Assembly (NCBI GenBank): GCA_964017235.1
Contig: OZ024927.1
Coordinates: 48,551,293-48,615,292 of the forward strand
Length of the DNA: 64,000 nt
Direction: 5' to 3'
DNA from: Sabellastarte sp. h YS-2021
Taxonomy: Eukaryota > Annelida > Polychaeta > Sabellida > Sabellidae
Shown in pieces: positions 36,783-50,900 of this stretch; the stretch's first letter is position 1; each line of letters begins with the position of its first letter. The position numbers and the translations under genes were made by a program. The notes beneath the pieces are model-generated. The model did not search any database, was not told where the DNA came from, and saw only the letters and a list, made by a program, of their open reading frames with translations.

Positions 36783-37878
36783 TTATGGTACACTGGTAAA
36801 CACTAAATACATTATACAGTAAAAAATATAAGAAACCTTACCGTAAACATCTGGAGAGGTAAACAATACCTGGACCTTGGAATAGACTCCTGAAGACTTG
36901 GCTGCAGTGGGTGTGCCCCCCTTCTTTTCTTCCTGAAGATGAGTATGCCAAGGGGAAGGGACTAGGACTTGCTGTGCCGCTACTACTGGTCCCAGATACA
37001 TATTGTTGTTTGACCAAGTAAGGTCATTTAGGTAAAAAAGTGTGTGAGCTTTGGTCCACCGATACCCCACCGTAAAAGGCCTTAGAGGCCTCGAAGGCCC
37101 TAATGTCATGCTTTGAAAGTAGGATAGTTTGTTTAGATAGGAAGAGAGTGTAGCAGGTCTGATGTCTGAGGTGAGTCCTTTCTCAAAGGAGATGAAAAGA
37201 AGGGATGGAGACCCTCTTAGGTCTTTGGTTCGATCCAAATAATACCTCAGGGCCCGTACCAGACATAAGGTCCTGTCTTCTCTGAATTGTCTATCTACAA
37301 TGGTAGTTAGAGCAGGAATAGTCACCGGAGATACACTTGAGAACCTTCTCTTTCTAGTTGGTTTTTGGCTATGAAATCTGAAGAGGGGAACAAGGCAACC
37401 TTTTCCCATTGGCCTATATTAGATACTTTGTTTGCAACCCAGGCATGGATTTCGCTACGGTGCTTGCTGGAGGCCAAGGCTAGCAAGAAACATCTGTGTC
37501 TTTCATAGGCTCAAAGGGTGCTTTTGTGAGCTCATTGAGAACAACAGAAAAGGTTCCATTTAGGAAGATGCCTGGAACTTTTGGGACGATCCCTGTGAAA
37601 CTGGAGAGTAACCTGTTTAGGTCTAAATTCTAAGAGATATGGAGCCCCGCTGGGCCCAGGGTGTCAATAATGGCTGTCCTTTAACCATCAATGGTCGAAG
37701 GGTGCCTGTTTAGATCTTGGTGCAGGTACATAAAGATGTCTGAGACTTGCTTTACAGAGGGAGTGGAGAAATCCACCAAATTTTCTCTGCACCATTTTTC
37801 AAATAGGGCCCACTTTGACTTGTAGATGGTCCTTGTTGACAATCTCTGAGGGGCAGCAATTCTCTCTGCCACCTCCAC
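36783..37878 (-). pseudogene. Tyrosine recombinase of the DIRS element, frameshifted
   Basis: The N-terminal frame (37,878-37,681) reads LSTRTIYKSKWALFEKWCRE and VSDIFMYLHQDLNRHPSTID, the core-binding domain typical of DIRS/Ngaro recombinases. The C-terminal frame (37,409-36,783) contains DRTLCLVRALRYYLDRTKDL, LLFISFEKGL and FYLNDLTWSNNNMYLGPVVA, matching the catalytic domain up to the Y-L-x-D-L region with the nucleophile Tyr. The 37,410-37,680 segment between them is out of frame. The usual H-x-x-R block before the tyrosine is disrupted (PLRPFTVGYRWTKAHTLF). Such recombinases integrate circular DIRS cDNA; this copy is not functional. Confidence 0.8.
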
Positions 37879-39145
37879 AGGGAAGCCTTGTTTTAGAGCT
37901 GTCCACTCCTAGACACCAGGGGAGGAGGTTAAGATGCTGTGGATTGCTGTGGAACACATAATTGTTGGATTGTTTGAGAAGAATTCTTGACATTGGAAGT
38001 TGAAAAGGGATCTCTGTTGAGAGCTGCACTAGGTCCCAAAACCAGGGCATCCTTGGCCAGCCTGGGGCTATTACAGTGACTAGGCAACTGGATTGCCTAA
38101 TTTGGATCACCCTGTAAAGGAGAGCCATGGGAGGGTAAGCATAAGCAGTGAGACCTGTCCAGTTTATGTTCAGAGAATCTATGTCCCAAGCATTTGGTCT
38201 GGGACTGGAGACACGTATAGTGGAACTTTGTGGTTCAGGCGAGTGGCAATAGATCTACCTGAGGAGTGAACCACTTGAGACAGATCTGTTTGAAACATTC
38301 TGTTGATTGGACTTGGTTCGACCTGGACAGAAGGTCGACCATCACATTCAGATACCCTAGAATGTGTCTGGCTTAAAAAAATAAGGTTATCTGATAATGC
38401 TGGCACCAGGACATGATCTTCCACAGGAGAGCACACATCTCCACTGAGTGAGTTCCTCCTTATTTATTTATGTAGGCTATTACTGTTGAGTTGTCTGTAG
38501 CAACCAACACTGTTTGGGTTTAACACTCGTCCCTGAACCTTTGAAGGCCCAGAGGAACCGCCTTTAGCTCTAGAACATTTATGTGTAGCCTTATTACCCA
38601 TTCTGACCAAAGACCCTTTGTAGAGGTGTGCTCTAAGTAAGCGCCCCAGCCTTCGTTGAGGTATCTGTAAAGAATTAGATACTGTGGTCTTGGGATGAAG
38701 GTCTGTGCCTCTCATCACGTTTGTGGGATTCTGTCACCATTCTAGGTGTGCTAAAAAGGTTTTTGTCCAAGGAAGGAGGGTGTCCAACGACTGAGGAAAT
38801 CTCCAGTGCTCCTTGAGGGCCTCATGTGAAGGCACCCCTCTGGGACCATTTTCTCTGTTGAGACAAGCAACCCAATTAGCGACATCAAACATCTTGTAGT
38901 CAAAAACATGTTTGACTTGAGTCGTAGGAACAAATCCTGAAATTTGAGCCATCTCTCTTGAGAGGGTTTTACAAGGGCTGAATCTAGATGGAATTTGTAG
39001 CCCACGAACGAAAACACTTGAGTAGGTTTAGTTCGGACTTCTCCTGATTTATTATCCAGCCTAAGGACTGGATTAGGTCTACCACTGTCTGAGTGTTTAT
39101 TGTGCTTCTTCCTGAGACTGGGCAGTAGTATAAGGACAACGACAA
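37879..39145 (-). pseudogene. DIRS RT C-terminal part, RNase H and linker, many frameshifts
   Basis: Pieces read in order on the minus strand. NTQTVVDLIQSLGWIINQEK at about 39,090-39,030 is the RT segment that normally follows YLDD by about a dozen residues. FVGYKFHLDSALVKPSQERW comes next, then TTRCLMSLIGLLVSTEKMVP (thumb/connection). The RNase H region (about 38,700-38,470) contains GCYRQLNSN-like remnants in shifted frames, and MALLYRVIQIRQSSCLVTVI near 38,128 is the conserved tail before the recombinase. Each piece is in a different frame, so the gene is dead. Confidence 0.7.
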
Positions 39146-39164
39146 ACTTCTATTCCACCATATT

Positions 39165-40660
39165 TTTGAGCGATTTGATTGGTCGAGAGGGGTCACGTGA
39201 CATAGGTGACGTCATCATGGTGACCATGGCAACGGAAGTGACGTCATGTTTGAGGGATCTGATTGGTCGAGATGTAGGTGACGTCATCAAGGTTACCATG
39301 GTGCTGGAAGTGTCGTCATCATGGTGACCATGGTGACGGAAGTGAAGTCATCAGGATTACCATGGTGACGGAAGTGACATCATCATGCAGCAATCTGATT
39401 GGTCGAGACATAGGTGACGTCATCATGGTGTACATGACTACGCTAGATTTTTATTCGCGCATGCGCACTTCCCCTAAATATTTATTCGCGCATGCGCAGT
39501 GGTGTGTAGCAATCTGATTGGTAGATGACGTCACGTGACCAAATGCTGCAATTTGATTGATGACGTCACATGACCCCACTGACATCAGAGTGATTGACAC
39601 ATGGTAAACAATAACAATGGGGGTTAGATATGGTATCCAGGAATAATAATAATAATTATTATTATAATGATGCCAGATAGCAAGTTACATCAGGGTGAAT
39701 TTATAGTAAGAATAGTGTTTTTATATCTAAAATCGCAAAATAGTGGGTTAAAATTTGAGGGACCACCTAATTCTGAGTATTGGCTAACCCGTCTCAAGAT
39801 ATTTTTTGACAAAGTTCCATAAAATCCCCTATTTATGCTCACCGCCATCTTGTATGACATCATGCACGATGTCATGTGATGTGTAGCAATCTGATTGGTT
39901 GATGATGTCACGTGACTAAATGGAGCAATCTGATTGGTTGTTGACATCATATCAAGTGACTACATACTGCAATGTGATTGGTTGATGACTAAATGCTGCA
40001 ATCTGATTGGTTGATGACATCACATCAACCAGGGTGCAGGCATCTGATTGGTTAATGATGTTATATTGTTTGGTTAATGGAGTGATGGTGATTGTTTATT
40101 AGGTCGCGCATGCGTACATTGTTGATTATAGTTTGGTACAGTATATATGTGTAATTTTTATATTTTTAGCCATAACTTCCTTATTTATGGATGGATTTTA
40201 ATGAAATAAAGACCAAAAGAAGCGTTGTGAAGTACACTTTCCGGCAATATAGTTTTTTAAAAAAATAAAATGTATATGGTTGTACATAAACTTGTAATTT
40301 CTTTTGTTATACATATCTTGTTGAATATTATTGTAAATAAAATACATTTTGTTGATATCTTTATTTTGGTTCTCCTCCTCCTCTTTCTTCCTCCTCCTCC
40401 TCCTCCTCCTCCTACTTCCTCCTCCTCCACCTCTTTCCTCCTCTTTCTTCCTCCTCCTCCTCCTCCTCCTAATATTACCCTTGACCCTCATTTCCAATCC
40501 TCCTCCACCACCATCACATTCCACCACCACCACCACCACCACATTTCACCACCACCACATTCCACCACAACCACCACCACCACATTCCACCACCACCACC
40601 ACCACCACCACATTCCACCACCACCTCCACCACCACCACCACCACATTCCACCACCACCA
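39165..40660 (+). repeat. Left inverted terminal repeat of the 11.2-kb element
   Basis: Matches the reverse complement of 48,920-50,338 over most of its length, for example TTATGGAACTTTGTCAAAAA, GGTGGTCCCTCAAATTTTAA (both complement on this side) and GAAGCGTTGTGAAGTACACT. At least ten CCAAT boxes (CTGATTGGT) stand next to CRE-like words, with full TGACGTCA at about 39,207, 39,238, 39,279, 39,413, 39,525 and 39,561. CACGTG follows the CRE at 39,530, and GCGCATGCGC occurs at about 39,457, 39,488 and, in part, 40,095. The inner end passes into (TCC)n then (CCA)n. Frames in the repeats such as FGTLSKNILRRV are mirrored on both arms and look incidental. Confidence 0.9.
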
Positions 40661-40750
40661 CCACATTCCTCCTCCTCCTTTTCCCTCCTCCTCCACCTCT
40701 TTCCTCCTCCTCCTCCTTGACTCTCATTTTCACTCCTCCTCCTCCTCCTA
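40370..40750. repeat. (TCC)n and (CCA)n microsatellite tract at the inner left arm
   Basis: Long TCC, then CCA runs, then TCC again, with ACATTCCACCACC interruptions. The mirror tract is at 48,923-49,205. Apparent His/Pro- or Gly-rich proteins in this tract are low-complexity translations. Confidence 0.95.
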
Positions 40751-40802
40751 ATATTAGTGCATGCATGTATTAAAGTTCAGTATTAAATTCAGTGTATTGA
40801 AG

Positions 40803-41171
40803 ATGGATACAAAAGTAGAAATAGATATTGGTTACAAAGGTTTTGGAGAGCACGTATTAAGTATAAGAAGATATTTTTACAAAGACGGGAAAATAAGTTT
40901 GAGTATGGTAGAATGTCGACATAAACTTTATGATAGATTATATGAGAGTGTAGGTAAAATTAATCATATGATAGAAAAAGGTGCTTTTGAGAAAATTTGG
41001 TTAGATGAGAATGTCTGCATAGAAGTATTGAAATATAAAGGAGAAAGTGAAATTCACATTAGACACACAGATGAGGGTGTGATGTTGACTAAAACACATT
41101 GGGAGACTTTGGTGTGTTTAATGGAAAAATATGCAAAAACGATAGGTTTCGATAGGTATTTTGGTGTATAA
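40803..41171 (+). CDS. Two-module PC4-like protein A, 122 aa
   Basis: First gene inside the left arm. I chose the ATG at 40,803 (AAGATGG context) over the upstream ATG at 40,761, because the 14 extra residues lie close to the repeat and the shorter product has the same length (122 aa) as its downstream paralogue. Residues 3-45 (VEIDIGYKGFGEHVLSIRRY, FYKDGKISLS) and 75-115 (VCIEVLKYKGESEIHIRH, GVMLTKTHWETLVCLM) look like two copies of one module: strands, an I-R-x-x-x-x-x-x-G turn, then G-[IV]-x-L-[ST]-x-x-x-W-x-x-L. That is the pattern of the PC4/Sub1 ssDNA-binding fold (KGISL-x-x-x-x-W). DNA binding is inferred, not shown. An NRF1-like spacer separates it from the next gene. Confidence 0.7.
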   Translation: MDTKVEIDIGYKGFGEHVLSIRRYFYKDGKISLSMVECRHKLYDRLYESVGKINHMIEKGAFEKIWLDENVCIEVLKYKGESEIHIRHTDEGVMLTKTHWETLVCLMEKYAKTIGFDRYFGV

Positions 41172-41400
41172 AAGAAAACAATGGGAGTGCACATGCGCAA
41201 GGTAAACAGTATAAAAAGACGTAGAATGAAGTGCGTGCAAATTTTAGAATGCGCATTTGCAAAATAAAATTTAGAGTGGCACAGAGTGCGCATGCGCGCG
41301 TTAAAAAGTAGAGTTGAGAAGTTGCTTAGATTATTGCGTGGGCATGTGAACTTAGAAGGTGTATAAAAGCAGGTGAAAGAGTGCAAAATAAAAATAAAAA
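41172..41400 (+). promoter_or_regulatory. Intergenic spacer with NRF1-like GCGCATGCGC motifs
   Basis: Contains CACATGCGCAAG (41,191), AATGCGCATTTGC (41,250), AGTGCGCATGCGCGCG (41,287) and GGGCATGTG (41,340), each followed by AT-rich sequence with TATAAAA at 41,210 and 41,363. The same motif lies in both terminal repeats and in the 43,018-43,190 spacer, which suggests a shared promoter element for genes of this element. Confidence 0.6.
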
Positions 41401-41769
41401 ATGAATGTGGAGGTTGAATTTTTTAAGAGCAGAGAACGAAAAGTGGTGGTATTAAGAAAAATAAGTGTGGAAGAGCAAGTGACGGATTTTGATGCAACAA
41501 TAATTTTTGAAGATAAATATGAAATAATATTTCGCGAATCAAAGAGAATAAGTAAATTAATAGAGAAAAACTATCGGGAGTATATGGGTGACAAGCATCA
41601 TTTAAAGGTGGAATTAGACAGTTTGGTGTATATAGGAGATTTTTACTTAACATTTTCTCAGTGGGCAGAATTTTGTACGATTTGGAATGAATTTGAAGCA
41701 AGTGGATTACTATGTGAAAAGTATCAGTTATCAATACCAAAATCTCGAAGAGAATTAAGAAATGATTAG
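41401..41769 (+). CDS. Two-module PC4-like protein B, 122 aa
   Basis: Starts with ATG in an AAAAAATGAATG context, 38 bp after TATAAAA. Length equals protein A. The second module is clear (HLKVELDSLVYIGDFYLTFS then QWAEFCTIWNEF), with the Leu-x-x-x-x-Trp core. The first module (ERKVVVLRKISVEEQ through ATIIFEDKYEIIFRESKRIS) is diverged. The stop codon region overlaps the ATG of the next, frameshifted paralogue at 41,761, so translation of the two would overlap by about nine bases. Function unknown; ssDNA or RNA binding would be the expectation from the fold. Confidence 0.65.
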   Translation: MNVEVEFFKSRERKVVVLRKISVEEQVTDFDATIIFEDKYEIIFRESKRISKLIEKNYREYMGDKHHLKVELDSLVYIGDFYLTFSQWAEFCTIWNEFEASGLLCEKYQLSIPKSRRELRND

Positions 41770-42048
41770 TTTTGAGGTGCAGAAAAACAATTTGATATTT
41801 TCTAAAGGACACCAAAAGGTTATTGTTGCAGGTGAAGATTACAAAAAGTTTAAAAAAATTTTAAGCAGAATAAGTCATGGATTAAAAAAAGTCTAGTCGT
41901 GAATTTTTTGGAGAGACTTGGGGTGGGTGGACAATAGAATTGGTGAAGGTGATAAAAATAGGAGGAATATCATTAAGTCGTGAACATTGGTTAAAGGTGG
42001 TGGCAATTTGTTGTAAATCAGAGAAAGGAGTATATTACCTTGGATGAG
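41761..42048 (+). pseudogene. Third PC4-like paralogue, one-base frameshift
   Basis: Starts ATGATTAGTTTTGAGGTGC inside the end of protein B. The first 45 codons (module 1) run into TAG at 41,894. The second module (GGISLSREHWLKVVAICC) continues in the next frame to TGA at about 42,046. The shift lies at the run of seven A at about 41,883-41,889, so either one base was gained or lost or the ribosome slips there. The length of about 95 codons is shorter than its neighbours. Confidence 0.55.
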
Positions 42049-42226
42049 TTTAAAGGAAATTCAAGTATTAGCAAGGAGACAGGTGGATGCAGTGGAGGTA
42101 GTGAGATTGGTGAATTTAAAGATTGTGTTATTGGTGTATTGTTTTTACCGATTGAATATAGTTTTTCTTGGAACACCTTATTCAAGCTTGGTTATCATTT
42201 CCTGGGTCGATTTCTGAAAATGCAGA
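42044..42226 (+). other. Short frame before the next gene
   Basis: ATG at 42,044 opens about 56 codons (MSLKEIQVLARRQVDAVEVV, then a hydrophobic run IVLLVYCF) and stops at a TGA at about 42,212, five codons before the ATG of the next gene and in the same frame. It may be a separate small membrane peptide or a stop-broken N-terminus of the next protein. Confidence 0.3.
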
Positions 42227-42787
42227 ATGAATTATTTTTCTGATTATTTACAGACGCTTGGTAATGATTTTGAGATAGCAGCCACAGAATTTGATTTAAT
42301 AATTGTAAAGGAAAACACTGAATTGATGTTAATGGGGATGATGGAACAATTAAAAGCGTTAGAAAAACCTTTAAAAGAAAGTATATCAAAAGGGGAATTT
42401 TCAGACTATATGATGACAGATGGATGGAGTTGTTATATTTCAAAAACAGGTTCATTTCATTTATTTTGTTATTCTCAACCTATTTTGAATCTGAGTTTTA
42501 AATCATTTTCATATTTATTGGGTTTAGTAACAAATCATTACAAGGTTTATATGATAAAGTTTGAAGATCAGCTCACAGGACAATTATGTGAGTGTCACTC
42601 TTGCTATAGTGACGAGTATACTTGGAACCATTTGGATCTATTTGAAAAGCGAGGTTTAAAGATAGAATTGGGTGATGTGGTGACAGGAGAAATGTTGTTA
42701 AAGATATTAAGTATTCAAGAGGATCTTTTTCGTTGTTTGCATCATTTTAGACCAAAAAGGTTAGAAGAATTATGTTTGCTAGATTAA
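42227..42787 (+). CDS. Unknown protein C, 186 aa, related to the C-terminal half of protein E
   Basis: ATG at 42,227. No known domain recognised. The segment LIIVKENTELMLMGMMEQLK resembles TPPTKYEFMLMGISYVVREI of the protein at 43,192. GSFHLFCYSQPILNLSFKSF has the strand-strand-L-S pattern of the PC4-like modules. CECHSC at about residue 122 could bind metal only with partners. The end overlaps by 16 bp the start of the next frame (42,772). Together the two frames would have a size close to that of the 284-aa protein, so a frameshifted single gene is an alternative. AT-rich codon use as in neighbours. Confidence 0.6.
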   Translation: MNYFSDYLQTLGNDFEIAATEFDLIIVKENTELMLMGMMEQLKALEKPLKESISKGEFSDYMMTDGWSCYISKTGSFHLFCYSQPILNLSFKSFSYLLGLVTNHYKVYMIKFEDQLTGQLCECHSCYSDEYTWNHLDLFEKRGLKIELGDVVTGEMLLKILSIQEDLFRCLHHFRPKRLEELCLLD

Positions 42788-43017
42788 ATGAACAGGAAAA
42801 GAAAAATTTACCAGAAAGCGTGTACTATAGTTGTTTCAGAGGATCAATGTATCGAGATGTACCATATTTATGGTTTAATTCTACTGCTTTTTCAGTACAC
42901 TGTTTAAGGCGTCCGAAAGAACATCATTGGAAAATTGATAATGAGCATGAATTATGGAAAAAATTTTCCGTTTTTCTAAAGCATAAAGGTATTGTAATAT
43001 CCAAAAGGTGGATTTAA
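42772..43017 (+). CDS. Unknown protein D, 81 aa
   Basis: ATG at 42,772 overlaps the stop of the preceding gene by 16 bp. Contents: YYSCFRGSMYRDVPYLWFNS then HHWKIDNEHELWKKFSVFLK. A strand-rich half followed by a helix with a W-K-K-F pattern recalls one PC4-like module, but more weakly than in proteins A and B. It may be the C-terminal part of the preceding gene after a frameshift. The spacer with NRF1-like sites follows. Confidence 0.5.
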   Translation: MFARLNEQEKKNLPESVYYSCFRGSMYRDVPYLWFNSTAFSVHCLRRPKEHHWKIDNEHELWKKFSVFLKHKGIVISKRWI

Positions 43018-43190
43018 TGCGCATAAGCATACTAAATTTTTGCCATGTGTTACTAAAATTTAGAATGCGCATGCGCAATGAAAAAATAATAGCGTGCGCA
43101 TGTGCGACTTAAATATTAGGAAAAAAGTGTTTAAAAGAGAAAGACAAGAACAATATGAATTATTCGAGATAAAGGATTTGTAGAGAAAGG
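43018..43190 (+). promoter_or_regulatory. Second NRF1-like spacer
   Basis: Contains ATGCGCATAAGC (43,017), AATGCGCATGCGCAATG (43,065) and GTGCGCATGTGCGAC (43,095). Organisation matches 41,172-41,400, and a gene again starts shortly after. Confidence 0.6.
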
Positions 43191-43191
43191 A

Positions 43192-44046
43192 ATGAAAAAA
43201 AATATGGAATTGAGTTCAACTCTTTCAATATCAGTAAGACAGGGATTTGGCAATTATGTGAAACTACTTCGAGAAAAGAATGGGAAATCTTGGTGGATTA
43301 ATTTGAGCAGTAGTTTATTTGAGAAAATGTTTTTGATGAAGGGGGAAATTCATAAATGGATGCAAACAGGGGAAGAAAAGGAATGTTTGAAAATGGGAGC
43401 AGTGATTGTTAAAGTGAAAGAGTATGAAGGGGAAAATTATTTTTGTTTTGAAAAAAAGAATGGGGAATTTGTAAACAGAATTAATATGAATGGAAAAGAA
43501 TGGGTTCAATTACACCAAATGATGGACAAAATTATGGGTCAATTAGATCCTAAAAAAGAAATTTTTGAGAAACCATTTTTAGTGCGGTATTATCCCAAAC
43601 ATGGGGAAGCGTTTTATTTTCATAAAGCATCAGCAGCTGCTGATTATCCAGGTGTTAAAATTTTGAAGAAAAAATTGACTCCTCCAACAAAGTATGAGTT
43701 TATGTTAATGGGGATAAGTTATGTTGTAAGAGAAATATTAAAAACATATTCAAGAAAAAATTGTGAGGGTTGTTTTATGGGGTATTTGAGTCAATTAGAT
43801 CATAATCTTTGTCTTGTGGAGTGGGGTGAACAAGTAGATAATTATTATCATAGGGTAAAATCTACATTAAAAGAGGAAAAAGTGGTAGAATTTTTTGAAG
43901 GGGCTTTAAAAAGTGTAGGGATAAATGAAAGTATTTCATTTGAGAGAATAATGTCCATGGAAGATAAGGAAATAATGGATGTTGTAAAAACTGTAAATTA
44001 TCCTCGTGAATATGAGATGTTGTTTAAACCTTTTGTAAAAGAATAA
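43192..44046 (+). CDS. Large PC4-like paralogue E, 284 aa
   Basis: ATG at 43,192 (alternative at 43,204). Residues 8-55 (SISVRQGFGNYVKLLREKNG, SWWINLSSSLFEKMFLM) and 68-110 (AVIVKVKEYEGENYFCFEKK, then INMNGKEWVQLHQMM) are two PC4-like modules in the same tandem arrangement as protein A. Residues 125-284 form a second half (FLVRYYPKHGEAFYFHKASA, KYEFMLMGISYVVREI, LCLVEWGEQVDNYY) that resembles protein C. The protein therefore looks like a fusion of the two small-gene types, or the small genes are its fragments. No catalytic motif seen. Confidence 0.7.
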   Translation: MKKNMELSSTLSISVRQGFGNYVKLLREKNGKSWWINLSSSLFEKMFLMKGEIHKWMQTGEEKECLKMGAVIVKVKEYEGENYFCFEKKNGEFVNRINMNGKEWVQLHQMMDKIMGQLDPKKEIFEKPFLVRYYPKHGEAFYFHKASAAADYPGVKILKKKLTPPTKYEFMLMGISYVVREILKTYSRKNCEGCFMGYLSQLDHNLCLVEWGEQVDNYYHRVKSTLKEEKVVEFFEGALKSVGINESISFERIMSMEDKEIMDVVKTVNYPREYEMLFKPFVKE

Positions 44047-44084
44047 GAAGAAATGTAAAAATATATCAAAAGTGGTTGTTGTTA

Positions 44085-44295
44085 TGTTTTTTGTGCTTGT
44101 CAATGCAAGTCAAAGTTGCTTGGTGATGTAAAATGTATATAGATACGGTTGTTAACGCAAGTTCAAATTTGCTAGGTGATGTAAAATGTATATAGATACG
44201 GTTGTCAATGCAAGTTCAAAGTTGCTAGGTGATGTAAAATGTATATAGATACTGTTGTCAGTGCAAGTCAAATTTGCTTGGCAACCAAAGTGACG
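44085..44295 (+). promoter_or_regulatory. 53-bp tandem repeat with X-box-like and TATA-like words
   Basis: Nearly four copies of a 53-bp unit: GTTGCTAGGTGATGTAAAAT followed by GTATATAGATAC (copies start near 44,115, 44,168 and 44,221). The last partial copy ends TTTGCTTGGCAACCAAAGTG, resembling an RFX X-box half (GGCAAC), with GTGACGTAA behind it. Placed directly before the next gene, it looks like a repeated promoter. Confidence 0.65.
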
Positions 44296-44313
44296 TAAAA
44301 GGTGTTAAATGAA

Positions 44314-45438
44314 ATGTCAGTCACTTGTACTTTAGTCAAGATGGTGTACACAGTGTTTTTTAGACTCTGTCATAAAGAAGATGTTTTTAACATTTTTCAA
44401 AATTTAAAAGTGCATTTGACAGACGACTATGTAGCTTTAAAGTTAACTAAAGGAAAATTGAGTCTGTTAAAAGTATTTGTCAAAGATATGTCTATTGAGG
44501 AGTCTTTTGGGTTTAAGAGTTTTCAAGTGTCTTCATTAGACTTATTAGACCAAGGATACAGAGGGTACTTAGAAATAGAACGTCGAGGGATTTTTTTCAC
44601 TTCACAGTATCTGGACACTGAAAGTAGTTTAAAAGAATTGCAAAAGTTCTTAAATGAAAACAAAGTAGATTTGATGGAATTTCAAGACACGATTCATGTG
44701 TGTGGTTATCCCGGTCAAGCTAAAGCCATAGAGATCAAGGGATGTTCAAAAGCTATGAAGAAATATTATTTTGCTCCAATGAAGAAAAGTATGGTGACAC
44801 AAGTGATTGAAGAAGACAATCTTCCCACGAGTAAAAGCTTAGGACTTGGAGCACAATGTCTCTGGGTAAATGGAGCAGAAGAAAGAAGTGAAATACTGAT
44901 GCCCTTTTATTTAGGTGCTCATTGTGAAGATCTTGTCAAATCCAGTCATCAATTGATAAAAGCCAAACAAGTGATTTTTATTTTTGTGCAGCAACTTTTG
45001 GGTTATTTTCCCAGTGTGACATTGGAAAAAGAAACACCTGTGGGGAAAAAACCATTACACTCATTAGCCTGGCAGAAAGTCTTTCATTCTGAAGATGTGG
45101 CTAGTTTTTTAAATAAAATAGTGGATCCTCTTCCAGAAAGAAGTTTGAGAATGATGATGATGAATTCAGCATCTCCAAAGACTTTGTTTGAAGAACTGGA
45201 CGAAATATTAACAGATGTACAAATGCAAGACAATGAAGCAGAGAATCTATTAGAGTCATTATTAGCCATGACTGAGGGATCAGAAGGACTTGACAAAGAA
45301 TTCTCTGCACTCCCTGGAGTTGAGAATGTTTTAGCAGATATGAGCAGTTTCCAAATGATGTGCACTGTGTGTTACCAATTATCAAACGAAGGATGTCATT
45401 GCCATGAAATGAGGTGTGAACGATGTTTTGGTTTGTAA
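44314..45438 (+). CDS. Unknown protein F, 374 aa with Cys/His-rich C-terminus
   Basis: The first ATG is at 44,314. A better initiation context (TCAAGATGG) lies nine codons later at 44,341, giving 365 aa. N-terminal residues (MVYTVFFRLCHKEDVFNIFQ) and the following strand-rich region may be a compact globular domain. Residues around 290-340 are acidic (LFEELDEILTDVQMQDNEAE), as in many activation domains. The C-terminus MCTVCYQLSNEGCHCHEMRC followed by ERCFGL offers C-x2-C...C-x-C-H...C-x2-C ligands, a plausible small zinc-binding module. No homologue recognised. The stop is followed within 4 bp by GGTAAG, a possible splice donor whose partner could be TTGATTTCCAG at 45,883. Confidence 0.65.
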   Translation: MSVTCTLVKMVYTVFFRLCHKEDVFNIFQNLKVHLTDDYVALKLTKGKLSLLKVFVKDMSIEESFGFKSFQVSSLDLLDQGYRGYLEIERRGIFFTSQYLDTESSLKELQKFLNENKVDLMEFQDTIHVCGYPGQAKAIEIKGCSKAMKKYYFAPMKKSMVTQVIEEDNLPTSKSLGLGAQCLWVNGAEERSEILMPFYLGAHCEDLVKSSHQLIKAKQVIFIFVQQLLGYFPSVTLEKETPVGKKPLHSLAWQKVFHSEDVASFLNKIVDPLPERSLRMMMMNSASPKTLFEELDEILTDVQMQDNEAENLLESLLAMTEGSEGLDKEFSALPGVENVLADMSSFQMMCTVCYQLSNEGCHCHEMRCERCFGL

Positions 45439-45914
45439 AAGGTAAGAAAATAATTTTTAAAAACCCGCTAAAATACATATGAAAAATATTGTCTATACGT
45501 TGTAAAATTATAAATCATGAAAAAACGATAAGCAAAACAACGTTTATTTAAAAAGTGTTGTGACGTCATAAACCACAAAAAAAATTGCAACGTTGCAAAT
45601 GGTATGACGTTTATTGTAACATTGTCTTTAGAGATGCGTTATTTTATTACATATGTTTTCAATTTTAACGCATAAATGTTTTTTAGGAAAGTCTCAGTCA
45701 GGCAATGTTTATAACAAACTAAACGTATAAATTATAGTTTAAATATGTTTTTTATAAAAGATAAAAGGTTTTTTAATTTTTTGTTTCTTGTTTTGAAACT
45801 AAGGTTTTGTTTATAGATATATCGTCTTGACGACGTAATTTACGTCAAGCTAAAATATTCTTTGTATGTCATTTGATTTCCAGCAGTCAAAGAGGGGGGA
45901 CGTGTTCAATCATC

Positions 45915-46409
45915 ATGTCAAGTCTCAAATGTGAAAAATGTCAAAGATATCTTCATCCAATGAAAAAAAATCTCAGAACTGTTACTGGTGTTTCTGTGCC
46001 CTTCTGTTACTGGTGTTTGAAGTTTTTAAATAAAGAAGATCCCGAAGGACTTGTAATGCATGTATTTCACTGTAAAAATCACCCGTTGAAAGGCAGTCAA
46101 AACAAAATGAGTGCTTTAGAATGGGGACAAATGAGGTGCCACTGCTCCGTTTATCAGAAGCTGCAAGATTATCTGGATGGGAAGATTCCTTATCCCTTTT
46201 TCGGGTGTGATGCCGCAGTTCAAACAGAGGAAGAATCTTTTGTGGAGAATGTCAAAGCTCCCGAACCTATACTGATTCATCCAATTGTTGGTGAAGAAGA
46301 ACTTTCCACTTTAAAAATGAAATTTGAAGACGGGGAATTTGAAGTCAAAGTAGGGAAGAACGGCAAATGCACCAGATGTTTCAATGGTTTTGAATGTGAA
46401 CTGTATTAG
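45915..46409 (+). CDS. Cys-rich zinc-binding-like protein G, 164 aa
   Basis: I chose the ATG at 45,915 because no ATG precedes it in frame. The N-terminus MSSLKCEKCQRYLHPMKKNL, followed after 16 residues by FCYWCLKFL, gives C-x2-C-x(about 23)-C-x2-C, a treble-clef or zinc-ribbon pattern. Further HCKNH and CHCSVY add possible ligands (a second site), and CTRCFNGFEC lies at the very end. The centre is acidic (AAVQTEEESFVENV). No family recognised. The NF-kB-like array starts 18 bp after its stop. If 45,441-45,883 is an intron, this gene and protein F would share one transcript. Confidence 0.65.
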   Translation: MSSLKCEKCQRYLHPMKKNLRTVTGVSVPFCYWCLKFLNKEDPEGLVMHVFHCKNHPLKGSQNKMSALEWGQMRCHCSVYQKLQDYLDGKIPYPFFGCDAAVQTEEESFVENVKAPEPILIHPIVGEEELSTLKMKFEDGEFEVKVGKNGKCTRCFNGFECELY

Positions 46410-46426
46410 TCAAAGAAGCTTTCCAA

Positions 46427-46461
46427 GGGACTTTCCAAGGGGACTTTCCAAGGGACTTTCC
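46427..46461 (+). promoter_or_regulatory. Three tandem NF-kB consensus sites
   Basis: GGGACTTTCC at 46,427-46,436, GGGGACTTTCC at 46,439-46,449 and GGGACTTTCC at 46,452-46,461 are exact matches to the kB consensus GGGRNNYYCC, spaced 12-13 bp. A degenerate fourth (GCTTTCC) precedes them. Binding is inferred from consensus only. Confidence 0.7.
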
Positions 46462-48140
46462 GATGAACTTTTATCTATACGTCTGAAAACAACATCGAGG
46501 ATTCAGAGTGTTGTGTTTTTTATCAAAAGATTTTTCCTACTTTGGAAAATACAAGGGTATGAGAATTATCTATTTTCCCTTCTTGTCTTTTAAAGATGGT
46601 GAGATATTTGTTCAAACTTGCGTCGTTTGCTTTTAAAAGGCACTTTGTACAGTCTCAGCAGGCAAAAAAAAAATGTTAACGTTAAAACCGTCCAAAAAAT
46701 AATAATATATATAAATAATGCATAATTTTTACACCACGTGTAAAAATAATGTAAATTATGGGTACAAAAGTTTGAATATTTAGAAGTAATTAAATCGTTT
46801 TCTTTATTCAAGCTTTATTTCGCTGTAACTTTTGGAATGTTAATGACGTTCTGATCTCAAAGCGCGTGATTCATTTTAAGTGTCTTATGACAAGACTTTT
46901 TTGCCTGCGGGGAATTATTTGTAGTTTACTAAAGGTTTTAAAACGTCTTTTCAAATCTATGTTCTGTGGTGGGAATAAGGTAATATTTTCAAGCATGAAA
47001 AAATTACCTTATCCGTTTATAGAAATTAGATTTAAAAAGCCTTTTTAAAAACCTTTCTAAAAGGGGAATAATTCTTGTATAACGTTTTTTATATGTCTCT
47101 ATGACGTTTTAAACTTTTCTAATATGTAAATGCGCATAAAGTGTCACTGGTGTTGCACGTCTCCAAAAAAAAAAGACGTGACTTTTAAAAAGAGTTTTTT
47201 TTCAAGGGTGAAATATGTAATGATTTTCGCGTCTCCAAAAGACGTGTCTTTAAAAAAAGTTTTTCAAGGTTGAAATCTGTAATAAAACTCAAGTGATGGT
47301 TTTATAAATTTAACTTTAACTTCATTAGCTAAAAAAAACTCTGATAGAAGGTTACCACAGTTCCATTTTCTTGCAACTTTAACGATAAATATTCTTCTTA
47401 AAGCATTGTTCCCAGTCGGTCATTATTTGTGAATTGTCTTTTCCCATATTTGAGTTAATTTATCCGTCTTAAAGTGACTTTTGCTCTGTGTTTTGCATTT
47501 CATGTGTAAAATCCGTAAAGGTGATCATTGTTGATGCATTTTAAAAAAAAAAGCTTTTCAAAGCTTTTCAAATGTAAAATCTATTTTAAGACTTTTTAAA
47601 GTGTAAAAACTGTAAAAGAACGTCACGTCCCCCCCTCTTTGAAAACTTTTTAATGGAATATTCATAAGATAACCTATTTTTAAATCTAAAATAATATAAA
47701 AAATATTTACTCTAAAAAGTGGGGTTAGATTTTATTTCAAATTTTATCTTTATGCGTTTTAAAATTTTTTAAAGATTTATTGATAAAAAAGTTTCAAATA
47801 TATCATTTCATTTTTAATGCGTGAAGATGTGATTATAACCACGTCATTTTTCTGTGATTATCAAATTTTAATGGAAGATGTAAATATAACTACATCATTT
47901 TTCTGTGATTATCAAATTAATTAAGAGACTGTTTTTTGTTAGTATTTTAAAGTTTAAAAATTTCTGTTAACATTTTAAAAAAGGGTTGTCAAAAAATTTT
48001 ATGAAATATTTATTGTAAATTTTCTGTGATGACTTAATTTGTTTTAAAAAAAATTATCGTTAAAATGTATTTGAATAAAACAAGTAGATTTAATCTTGAT
48101 TTTTTTTCATGGTAGGGAATGAAAATTCCCCTTGATGGTT
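46462..48140. other. AT-rich noncoding region with duplicated stem-loops
   Basis: No convincing gene. CACGTCTCC...AAGACGTGAC at 47,155-47,181 and CGCGTCTCCAAAAGACGTGT at 47,228-47,248 are two stem-loop copies in a 73-bp duplication. TTTTTCTGTGATTATCAAAT with an upstream ATAACCACGTCA/ATAACTACATCA is duplicated at 47,836-47,868 and 47,887-47,918. Poly-A/T tracts dominate. A control or replication region is conceivable. Confidence 0.5.
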
Positions 48141-48146
48141 TATATT

Positions 48147-48593
48147 TTAAAAGTACTTTGAAGAAGAGCCGTCCTGCAAATGTTGATAAGGGATCGGCAT
48201 TCGATTTCTTTTCAAAACCACCCTCGCAAGGTATTCCAAGGAAAGGACACGATTGTACACTGCCCTTTTCAATTTCAACCTTGTCACTGTGCTGCCTGCC
48301 CAGTTGTATAAATAATTTTCGTGGTAAAAATCCAGCAGTTCTTCCTTGGAATTAAAGCAGGTCAGATTCAACTCTAATCTGTACTGCCCCAGGGTTTCTC
48401 TCACTATTTTCCTGGTAAACAATTTATCGGGGCCCATTTTTACCACCAAACTTATTTCCTGGTTGACCGAATCAAACAGCACAATAAATGAAAGTGGCTC
48501 CGACAAGAAATCAAAGCAATCTTTCAAATCTTTGACATGAACTATGCAGCTTGACATCTTGAAAAGATTTGAATAAGCGCCTAACGTCATCAT
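48147..48593 (-). CDS. Unknown protein H, 148 aa, minus strand
   Basis: The only substantial minus-strand gene of the core, placed before the right arm and converging with the others. Starts at ATG 48,593 or, more likely, at 48,557 (MSSCIVHVKDLKDCFDFLSE, 136 aa). The middle PLSFIVLFDSVNQEISLVVK and YRLELNLTCFNSKEELLDFY is strand-rich. The tail is basic (TRLKLKRAVYNRVL, RVVLKRNRMPIPYQ). A loose similarity to a sliding-clamp or processivity-factor start is possible, but I cannot support it. Confidence 0.55.
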   Translation of the reverse strand: MMTLGAYSNLFKMSSCIVHVKDLKDCFDFLSEPLSFIVLFDSVNQEISLVVKMGPDKLFTRKIVRETLGQYRLELNLTCFNSKEELLDFYHENYLYNWAGSTVTRLKLKRAVYNRVLSLEYLARVVLKRNRMPIPYQHLQDGSSSKYF

Positions 48594-48919
48594 GACGCAA
48601 AAAAATTCAGTGACGTTGAGATGTAAACTTCGTCACAATGAGCTTAAAATTTGAATGAGGTCATAAAAAATCAAGTTTCTTTTAACGATTTTATTTTTTA
48701 CAAATAATAAACTTATTTACCTTATAACTACTTATACAAAAATAAAAACAGATCTATATACCATTATGAAAATAGACATTTTACTGAAAAAGCTTTGCTT
48801 TGACTATAATAAGTTTATCTTAAATACAATTACGAAAAAACATTTTACTATGAAAACTTTTACCGTTTATACAATTTTGAAAACAGCACCACTACCTCAT
48901 ATTCATAAATGGTGTTGAA
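48594..48919. other. AT-rich spacer before the right arm
   Basis: Upstream region of the minus-strand gene. Contains TGACGTTGAG and CAAAATAAAAACAG-type AT-rich runs, with no other feature. Confidence 0.4.
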
Positions 48920-50338
48920 ATTTGGTGGTGGTGGTGGTGGTGGTGGAATGTGGTGTTGAAATGTGGTAGTGGTGGTGGTGGTGATGGTTGTCATTGTGGT
49001 GGTGGTGGTGGAATGTGGTGGAGGTGGTGGTGGTGGAATGTGGTGGTGGAATGTGGTGGTAGTGGTGGTGGTGGTGGAGGAGTAGTGAAAATGAGGGTCA
49101 AGGGTAATATTAGGAGGAGGAGGAGGAAGAGGAGGAAAGAGGAGGAGGAGGAAAGAGGAGGAGGAGGAGGAGGAGGAGGAGGAAGAAAGAGGAGGAGGAG
49201 AACAAAATAAAGATATCAACAAAATGTATTTTATTTACAATAATATTCAACAACATATGAATAACAAAAGAAATTACAAGTTTATGTGCAACCAGAAACA
49301 TTTTATTTTTAAAAAAACTATATTGCCGGAAAGTGTACTTCACAACGCTTCTTTTGGTCTTCATTTCATTAAAATCCATCCATAAATAAGGAAGTTATGG
49401 CTAAATATATATAAAATTACACATGTATACTGTACCAAACTATAATCAACAATGTGCGCATGCGCGATCTAATAAACAATCACCATCACTCCATTAACCA
49501 ATCAATATGACATCATTAACCAATCAGATGACTGCATCCTGGTTGATGTGATGTCAGCAACCAATAAGATTGCAGCATTTAGTCATCAACCAATCAAATT
49601 GCACCATTTAGTCACGTGACATCATCAACCAATCAGATTGCTACACACCACATGACATCGTGCATGATGTCATACAAGATGGCGGTGAGCAATAATAGGG
49701 GATTTTATGGAACTTTGTCAAAAAATATCTTGAGACGGGTTAGCCAATACTCAGAATTAGGTGGTCCCTCAAATTTTAACCCACTATTTTGCGATTTTAG
49801 ACATAAAAACACTATTCTTACTATAAATTCACCCTGATGTAACTTGCTATCTGGCATCATTATAATAATAATAATTATTATTATTCCTGGATACCATATC
49901 TAACCCCCATTGTTATTGTTTACCATGTGTCAATCACTCTGATGTCAGTGGGGTCATGTGACGTCATCAACCAATCAAATTGCAGCATTTGGTCACGTGA
50001 CGTCATCTACCAATCAGATTGCTACACACCACTGCGCATGCGCGAATAAATATTTAGGGGAAGTGCGCATGCGCGAATAAAAATCTAGCATAGTCATGTA
50101 CACTCTAAATTTTATCGCACGCATGCGCACCTTAGCTAATAGCTAGCTAGGGATATATATAGGGATATATATTACTAGCTAACTAATAGCTAGCTAGGGA
50201 TATATATAGGGATATATATTACTAGCTAGCCAATCACCATGATGACGTCACCTATGTCTCGACCAATCAGATTGCTGCATGATGATGTCACTTCCGTCAC
50301 CATGGTAATCCTGATGACTTCACTTCCATCGCCATGGT
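48920..50338 (-). repeat. Right inverted terminal repeat of the 11.2-kb element
   Basis: Mirror of the left arm, with the same CCAAT/CRE/E-box/NRF1 composition. GCGCATGCGC occurs at 49,456, 50,036, 50,066 and (CGCATGCGC) 50,120. It differs from the left arm by about 135 bp inserted at 50,104-50,238 and by one or two fewer outer units. The inner edge is the (GGT)n/(GGA)n tract at 48,923-49,205. Confidence 0.9.
50134..50230. repeat. 47-bp tandem duplication unique to the right arm
   Basis: CTAATAGCTAGCTAGGGATA followed by TATATAGGGATATATATTACTAG occurs twice, 47 bp apart (50,136 and 50,183). Rich in CTAGCTAG palindromes and absent from the left arm. Confidence 0.9.
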
Positions 50339-50344
50339 CACCAT

Positions 50345-50900
50345 GTCGTCCAGGTACTGGTGAAGACTGATTGACCTTGTCAGGGCCATCAACTTGACTT
50401 CTTCAACAATCATTGTAAAGACCTGAGGGGCCATGGCCAGCCCGAAGGGAAGGGAGGTGAACTGAAAACTTGTGACCTGTGGCAAAACCTTAGGTACTTC
50501 CTTGAGTTTGGGAGAATGGAGATGTGAAGGTAGGCATCTGATACGTCTATCGATGACACCCATTCCCCTATAGAACCTGACAGGCCCTGATGGACTCTGG
50601 TGTTTCCATATGAGCATTTTCGCAAGTAGGAAGGTGTTGAGCCTGCTTAGGTCTATTACTGGCCTCCACCTTTGTGAGGCTTGGGTACAAGAAACAGGCA
50701 ACTGTAAACCCCGAGAGATTTATATTTTCCACCCTTTCTATTGCATTCTTTGACAGAAGAGACTGGATACAAGAGGTTAGAGCTTGTTCTTTTGAAGGGC
50801 CTTGTAACCCGATAGAATCAGTGGAGCTCTGACCAATTTGGTTTGAGATGAATGGAAGAACGTAGCCATTGGTGAAAATGTACATTTGTTTCTGAGCCAG
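50345..50900 (-). pseudogene. DIRS RT N-terminal part, ends at the insertion
   Basis: Minus-strand frames contain ISNQIGQSSTDSIGLQGPSK, KNAIERVENI, RPVIDLSRLN (the RT motif before the fingers), FTSLPFGLAMAPQVFTMIVEE (RT motif with PFGL-x-x-AP) and ISLHQYLDDM (catalytic YLDD). The DIRS reading stops right after YLDD at 50,345, where the sequence changes to the terminal repeat of the inserted element. One frameshift separates the first part from the second (around 50,700). Confidence 0.8.

Follow-up and report, generated by a model that had tools for sequence, protein, structure and literature searches.

Polintons, or Mavericks (Eupolintoviridae, including the adintoviruses), are held to be self-contained elements with 5'-AG termini, and several large virus groups are thought to originate from them. 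Known virophages carry a capsid of their own. The available part of PMC10045372 gives 6 bp as the Polinton target-duplication length, and that of PMC11071296 defines adintoviruses by a PolB with an OTU-like N-terminus, a hexon recognisable by BLASTP, and an rve integrase with a chromodomain. Bidnaviruses divide a PolB-bearing DNA genome among linear segments, up to twelve in some, according to the same partial source. In their available parts, PMC11071308, PMC11071296, PMC4028283 and PMC12567637 describe segmented bidnaviruses and also genomes that have virion genes of the adenovirus class but in which neither PolB nor integrase is recognisable; they make no mention of a two-part Polinton. Among the matches listed from the open-access literature (titles and abstract openings, subscription papers lying mostly outside), we found no report of a two-part or segmented Polinton. 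Here we describe an element with eight open reading frames, P1 to P8, inserted in a 64,000-nucleotide stretch of the genome of Sabellastarte sp. h YS-2021 (contig OZ024927.1, positions 48,551,293 to 48,615,292; the window). Comparison with its relatives in the same genome gives about an even chance that this block is segment 2, in a form without PolB, of a two-segment Polinton. The broader proposal is that the Polintons of this animal clade are truly bipartite, with a capsid/integrase segment (segment 1) and a P1-P8 segment (segment 2), each bearing PolB. The two segments would reassort and swap ends, and would have been co-inherited since before two families split. To us this proposal seems equally balanced between right and wrong.

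The family of the block resembles Polintons in its 6-bp duplications and long inverted arms, and in that partners with the same ends carry PolB, an rve-chromodomain integrase, a protease, an ATPase and capsid-like genes. The block differs in that the window element lacks these genes, the P1-P8 set replaces the capsid-integrase half, and two kinds of element have their ends and PolB in common. Bidnaviruses are likewise PolB-bearing DNA viruses with more than one linear segment; the likeness drawn here is descriptive, and they derive from parvoviruses and have a parvovirus capsid and NS1 rather than the Polinton capsid and integrase seen here. Virophages such as mavirus, which are satellites and in some cases integrate, may resemble it in relying on a partner during some of the cycle, but the dependent partner here lacks both capsid and integrase. 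Like non-autonomous terminal inverted repeat (TIR) elements, the window copy has no polymerase or integrase and would need to be moved in trans; unlike them, it carries eight genes, seven with a pooled ratio of nonsynonymous to synonymous substitution rates (dN/dS) below 1, and a longer PolB-bearing form exists.

The evidence begins with the ends. A search of the 1.79-Gb genome with the arm, as the first-pass annotation of the window had suggested, gave 104 matched stretches (several per copy), and a 21-base terminus pattern with at most one mismatch gave 166 hits, compared with 12 when the pattern was reversed as a control. The termini begin 5'-AG in both families, as AGTAGTATAAGG in family I, to which the window copy belongs, and as AGTAGTATAAAGG in family II. 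Seven copies have the exact terminus on either side, and all seven are flanked by 6-bp target duplications, six of them perfect and one with one mismatch. Copies with P genes have ACTATC, TGTAGG and AACAGG (perfect) and TGCAAT/TGCATT (one mismatch); integrase copies have ATTCTT and AATAAT, and a mixed copy has CATAAT, all perfect. The same DNA ends on both partners suggest that they move as a pair. The first-pass annotation had set Polintons aside and proposed an unrecognised class, a view that our results do not support, as its termini and arms, the target duplications of its family and a remnant of PolB tie the block to Polintons. Its other suggestion, an endogenised DNA virus or a cargo-bearing TIR element mobilised in trans, came close, because the ends and 6-bp duplications are common with integrase-bearing Polintons and the window copy has no integrase.

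The two kinds of element differ in what lies between these ends. P1 to P8 occur in window order elsewhere, with all eight in L038 and L042; no P1 hit was found in L044 or L046/L047, and L036 is rearranged. L040 and L048 instead carry an integrase with a chromodomain, a protease, a packaging ATPase and capsid-like genes. Pfam matches for segment 1 lie above the cut-off for rve (2.8e-10) and Chromo (2.4e-7) and slightly below it for Peptidase_C5 (6.4e-4) and Pox_A32 (1.5e-4); the protease is adenain-like, and from their sequence features we take capsid-like genes to be major capsid protein (MCP) and penton. A 13.0-kb copy, L053, has PolB ahead of the same segment-1 genes and is a canonical Polinton; we had considered the 10-kb integrase-bearing kind to be the entire helper, and dropped this after the 13-kb PolB-bearing kind was read. 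On the other side, the 16.4-kb copy L056 has PolB, then P8 (58% identity), P7 (41%) and P6 (86%), on one 10-kb stretch. A decayed PolB fragment sits beside P8 in five of the eight segment-2 copies examined (window, L038, L042, L044 and L046); a remnant was not found in L031, L032, L036 or L052, L037 being outside this search. For L052, a longer stretch of PolB lies at C18:44178951, just outside the part compared. PolB in L053 and L056, with remnants elsewhere, indicates that both kinds exist with and without it. The window copy thus has only the decayed fragment, and PolB itself is found in segment 1 and in longer segment-2 relatives. Common ends with differing gene sets are what two segments would present, although the presence of PolB on both makes the sets less than strictly complementary.

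Several copies have unusual structures. L035 (C8:78141097-78149621), with a 6-bp duplication, has an interior of ATPase and P3/P4 fragments repeated in opposite orientations, mirrored; judging from this arrangement, it is a recombinant between the two kinds. Two capsid/integrase copies in the same orientation, C1:190232552 and C1:190237721 (L050), lie 5.2 kb apart with identical left flanks, which would result either from tandem duplication at the locus or from a duplicate in the assembly. The segment-2 copy L031/L032 (C7:14548723-14563361) itself contains a DIRS element whose open frame spans 782 codons.

The two gene sets exclude one another among the matches listed, which is the scope of all genome counts below. 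Our searches score best candidates only, and counts of places and neighbours are lower bounds. Matches were mapped for P6 (110), integrase (INT, 114), MCP (101) and PolB (104). In family I, 31 convergent terminus pairs from the best 100 of 166 termini contained P6 in 14 cases, INT in 13, neither in four and both in none. Two of the four pairs with neither contain MCP (C11:102731501, C3:157864320) and one contains ATPase and protease (C1:190237721), so that three of the four look like segment 1. From the same 100 termini, 38 were unpaired, and up to 16 kb inward of these we found P6 in 14, INT in 10, neither in 14 and both in none. Neither INT nor MCP of either family lies within 16 kb of any of the 83 P6 places (36 in family I, 47 in family II), a count that leaves out seven short P6 fragments (parts of residues 13-98 only) and 26 integrase rows at 48-49% identity. 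The P6 fragments were retained in the family-I terminus-pair count, still with no pair containing both sets. Both sets occur together in 0 of 68 end-to-end elements of the two families. MCP lies near at least 33 of 38 INT-I and at least 34 of 46 INT-II places. PolB lies near at least 16 of 36 P6-I and 25 of 47 P6-II places, and near at least 23 of 38 INT-I and 19 of 46 INT-II places.

Family II is well diverged, with identities to family I of 34-54% for P6 (mostly 44-46%), 53-63% for INT, 51-66% for MCP (mostly 61-63%) and 52-60% for PolB. Its terminus AGTAGTATAAAGG has 211 genome hits and none for the reversed control. The best 100 of these 211 form 37 pairs, with P6-II in 23, INT or MCP in 10, PolB alone in one, none of these in three and both sets in none. 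PolB is present in 20 of the 23 P6-II pairs, 15 of these being 18.6-19.7 kb long; the INT/MCP pairs comprise seven with PolB (12.1-13.1 kb) and three without (7.5-8.8 kb). One of the pairs with no match, C2:17862287-17872958, contains two of the dropped short P6 fragments. INT or MCP lies within 40 kb of P6 in none of the 47 family-II places. In L057, P2, P2b, a joined P3-P4 frame and P5 stand upstream of P6-II, P2 starting 392 bp after the terminus AGTAGTATAAAGG. In the pairs inspected, a difference within the terminus follows the kind, GCGTG or GCGCG with P6-II and GGGGG with INT-II. A third Polinton family is represented by the 26 integrase rows at 48-49% and by 13 PolB rows whose open frame has 1118 codons. 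Several of these rows coincide in place, and their equal scores suggest a recent spread.

PolB tracks the family more than the segment, as judged from identities to two queries. With a family-I segment-1 PolB as query, 27 places near INT-I/MCP-I have a median identity of 95% (60-100), and 16 near P6-I have 93.5% (79-95). The same query matches family II at 59% (20 places near INT/MCP) and 58% (25 near P6), with 10 places near none of these genes. A family-II segment-1 query gives 99% (92-99) at 37 places near INT/MCP and 91% (83-92) at 35 near P6, with none near both and five near neither. In a 27-row tree of the arms, three segment-1 arms fall within the segment-2 arms (support 100/97 and 99/97) and five others outside. 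The two arms of one element are 97.1-99.2% identical (four elements). The core of the left arm, 39,469-40,251, is common to PolB-less copies of both kinds. The simplest cause of this pattern would be exchange between both kinds in the same cells.

Under the two-segment reading, segment 1 would supply PolB, the packaging ATPase, protease, capsid-like proteins and chromodomain integrase, and segment 2 PolB (lost in the window copy) together with P1-P8; no capsid or integrase gene was found on the latter. PolB would replicate both segments from the common ends, the segment-1 integrase would join both to host DNA with 6-bp duplications, and its capsid and ATPase would package both. P1-P8 may then serve early or regulatory, single-stranded DNA-binding or transcription functions for both segments, and PC4-like proteins that bind single-stranded DNA would, on weak evidence, fit such a role. 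The window copy would be immobile without help, as it has no polymerase, no integrase and one damaged end.

A number of points weigh against this reading. Its support is all at the level of genome sequence. A strict division of labour would not call for PolB on each segment, and a satellite explains this placement equally well. We take the gene to be PolB from the motifs YDFE, DCNALY, KLVGNSAYG and DTDS; it has a PHROG DNA-polymerase match at 6e-4 and no Pfam match at E 0.1, and the genes named MCP and penton have no Pfam match. The PolB relations are identities to two queries rather than a tree. One copy, L035, carries fragments of both gene sets, and an element with both sets could have been missed, since the genome searches score best candidates only and the termini are the best 100 of 166 and 100 of 211. 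The 4.5 kb ahead of P6 in the family-II copy L057 yielded no P1, and family-II segment 2 is mostly unread between P6 and PolB. Finally, pooled dN/dS is 1.03 for P4, and P5 exceeds 1 in two of four comparisons.

The main rival holds that segment 2 is an ancient satellite, a virophage-like hyperparasite with its own PolB and genes that borrows integrase and capsid from a Polinton. We regard this as a serious contender, though somewhat improbable: PolB on segment 2 would let it replicate by itself, the complete classic set of Polinton genes is on segment 1 alone, which so looks self-sufficient, and short forms without PolB exist. However, each of two diverged families contains both kinds, which there share PolB and have related ends, and the two kinds have similar numbers among the matches listed (36 and 47 P6 places; 38 and 46 INT places); all of this is compatible with a satellite as well. 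It is unlikely that the two kinds arose by deletion from one larger Polinton of about 20 kb that carried everything. Polintons reach 15-40 kb in the available part of PMC12567637, PolB and the ends are common to both kinds, and L035 mixes ATPase with P3/P4 fragments, but no element with both sets appears in the 68 end-to-end elements or at the 83 P6 places listed, the split recurs in two families, and a 19.9-kb copy on C2 has P6 and PolB with no INT or MCP among the matches listed. We think it very doubtful that segment 2 is a virus in its own right, whose capsid and integration enzyme lie unrecognised among P1-P8 and whose ends came to match those of the Polinton through recombination. P2-P8 are without a firm Pfam or PHROGs match, the P6 profile has none in the PDB, and structure models are of low confidence, which leaves room for such genes; the family-I 6-bp duplication and terminal bases are nevertheless the same as in the integrase-bearing kind, the termini of both kinds are near-identical in family II, and the weak PC4 signals fit DNA binding better than a capsid. 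An assembly chimera or chance arrangement, for which we found nothing in favour, is almost certainly wrong, as there are many copies on many chromosomes with different flanks and target duplications.

The borders of the block in the window, and the features around them, are as follows.

39124..50345, no strand: whole inserted element, presumptive PolB-less form of segment 2, lacking the outer ~196 bp on the right (termini and arms compared across 30 loci; DIRS split)
37755..39123, minus strand: host DIRS element, portion downstream of YLDD (DIRS probe alignment)
50346..50671, minus strand: host DIRS element, reverse transcriptase up to YLDD (DIRS probe alignment)
39124..39135, plus strand: left terminus AGTAGTATAAGG (border in 26 of 30 loci; longer pattern with 166 genome hits against 12 for the control)
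39124..40260, plus strand: left inverted arm with TGACGTCA, CCAATCA and GCGCATGCGC motifs (arm comparison)
49301..50345, minus strand: right inverted arm, outer end truncated (arm comparison)
40355..40756, plus strand: CCTCCT/CCACCA repeat on the inner side of the left arm (repeat analysis)
48911..49214, minus strand: mirrored CCTCCT/CCACCA repeat at the right arm (repeat analysis)
44110..44275, plus strand: three tandem repeats with 53-bp spacing (repeat analysis)

The first-pass annotation had placed the block as an insertion within a DIRS reverse transcriptase gene, and the DIRS probe bears this out. It aligned at 50,671-50,330 (minus strand) up to YLDD, and then again at 39,097-39,011, the split falling directly after YLDD. 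The long mirrored arms that were reported are also present; 39,553-39,945 and 49,582-49,974 are 98% complementary, with more paired blocks between 39,320-40,448 and 49,124-50,345. These arms are about 1.2 kb in the window copy, and related arms occur at 30 host-genome loci, consistent with the long TIRs of Polintons. The right border of about 50.34 kb was correct (50,345), and the left, given as 39,150, moves to 39,124 by comparison of arm loci. By our reading of the alignment, AGTAGTATAA marks the junction to the flank in 26 of the 30 arm loci, the window copy being one; L023 and L030 have one flank in common and are not independent, and L002, L008, L013 and L029 do not show the AGTAGTATAA border. 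The right arm ends at the position equivalent to 39,320, with about 196 bp of its outer part lost, and because of this truncation the window copy has no readable target duplication. A stretch related to the CCTCCT/CCACCA repeat sits between PolB and ATPase in the full segment 1 of L053. Exact GCGCATGCGC motifs, which we take to be NRF1-like, number seven in the 64-kb window, and all seven fall inside the element, where they lie in its arms and ahead of P2 and P5; counts range from 0 to 10 in 11 other element loci, and we draw no conclusion from the motif.

The genes of the block are listed below.

40803..41171, plus strand: P1, 122 aa, weak PC4 match (Pfam E 0.0015; pooled dN/dS 0.34)
41401..41769, plus strand: P2, 122 aa, unknown (open frame; pooled dN/dS 0.43)
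41764..42050, plus strand: P2b, broken in the window, an open 94-codon frame in family-II copy L057 (frame comparison)
42221..42787, plus strand: P3, 188 aa, unknown, a single frame with P4 in family II (pooled dN/dS 0.43)
42772..43017, plus strand: P4, 81 aa, unknown (pooled dN/dS 1.03, no sign of constraint)
43192..44046, plus strand: P5, 284 aa, PC4-like four strands and helix predicted at residues 63-118, low confidence (pooled dN/dS 0.60)
44314..45438, plus strand: P6, 374 aa, C-terminal Cys/His cluster, the segment-2 marker gene (pooled dN/dS 0.58)
45915..46409, plus strand: P7, 164 aa, Cys-rich (pooled dN/dS 0.28)
48147..48593, minus strand: P8, 148 aa when read from its first ATG (pooled dN/dS 0.25)
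47266..47430, minus strand: decayed PolB fragment, 165 bp (comparison with PolB)

About nine genes had been reported, none of them assignable. Eight are open frames and one further frame (41,764-42,050) is broken, and the lack of assignment stands for most of them, P1 and P5 giving a weak PC4 signal. Pooled dN/dS, from window genes against other copies, is below 1 for seven of the eight P genes and blends selection before insertion with decay after it; the highest single-comparison values are 0.98 for P2, 2.52 for P4 and 1.50 for P5. P1 matches Pfam PC4 at E 0.0015 with 18.4 bits, below the family cut-off of 25. In PHROGs, P5 residues 13-106 match phrog_33262, named PAPS reductase, at E 0.0012. 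The P5 model (mean pLDDT, a per-residue confidence score, of 52) has 177 Foldseek matches, and six of the first 12 are PC4/Sub1 chains, with E values of 0.97-1.6; the best-ranked match is an unrelated protein, and all fold matches of this model lie above E 0.02. P1 and P5 thus look weakly PC4-like in these profile and model comparisons. The best match between different genes in mutual profile comparison, P1 against the P5 N-terminus, has E 0.018 and a probability of only 2.5%, and no firm paralogy among P1-P8 was found.

P2-P8 have no firm match in Pfam or PHROGs, and Pfam gave no retrovirus-like integrase, capsid, ATPase or protease match among the window P1-P8. The AlphaFold model of P6 (mean pLDDT 39) was too poor for use. 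IMG/VR scans with P5, P6 and MCP found no relative, and PDB sequence searches with the P6 profile, P1, MCP and the PolB piece returned nothing usable. Protein-database relatives number 19 for P1 (72-94% identity), nine for P5 and eleven for P6, the window's own protein family included, and all may come from the same species. Relatives of P5 and P6 at 41-62% were considered as proteins of another species; this was dropped, as the same genome has a P6-II group of such identity.

If the two-segment reading is correct, these elements would represent the first segmented genome in the Polinton/adenovirus-like lineage, as far as the open-access literature searched shows. Their organisation would also explain gene-rich TIR insertions without a transposase that are otherwise annotated as unknown repeats or host genes, and eight unknown gene families would gain a setting for function tests. 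The choice between segment and satellite for the second part can be tested directly. A two-part organisation of such long standing would show that the Polinton lineage can split its genome.

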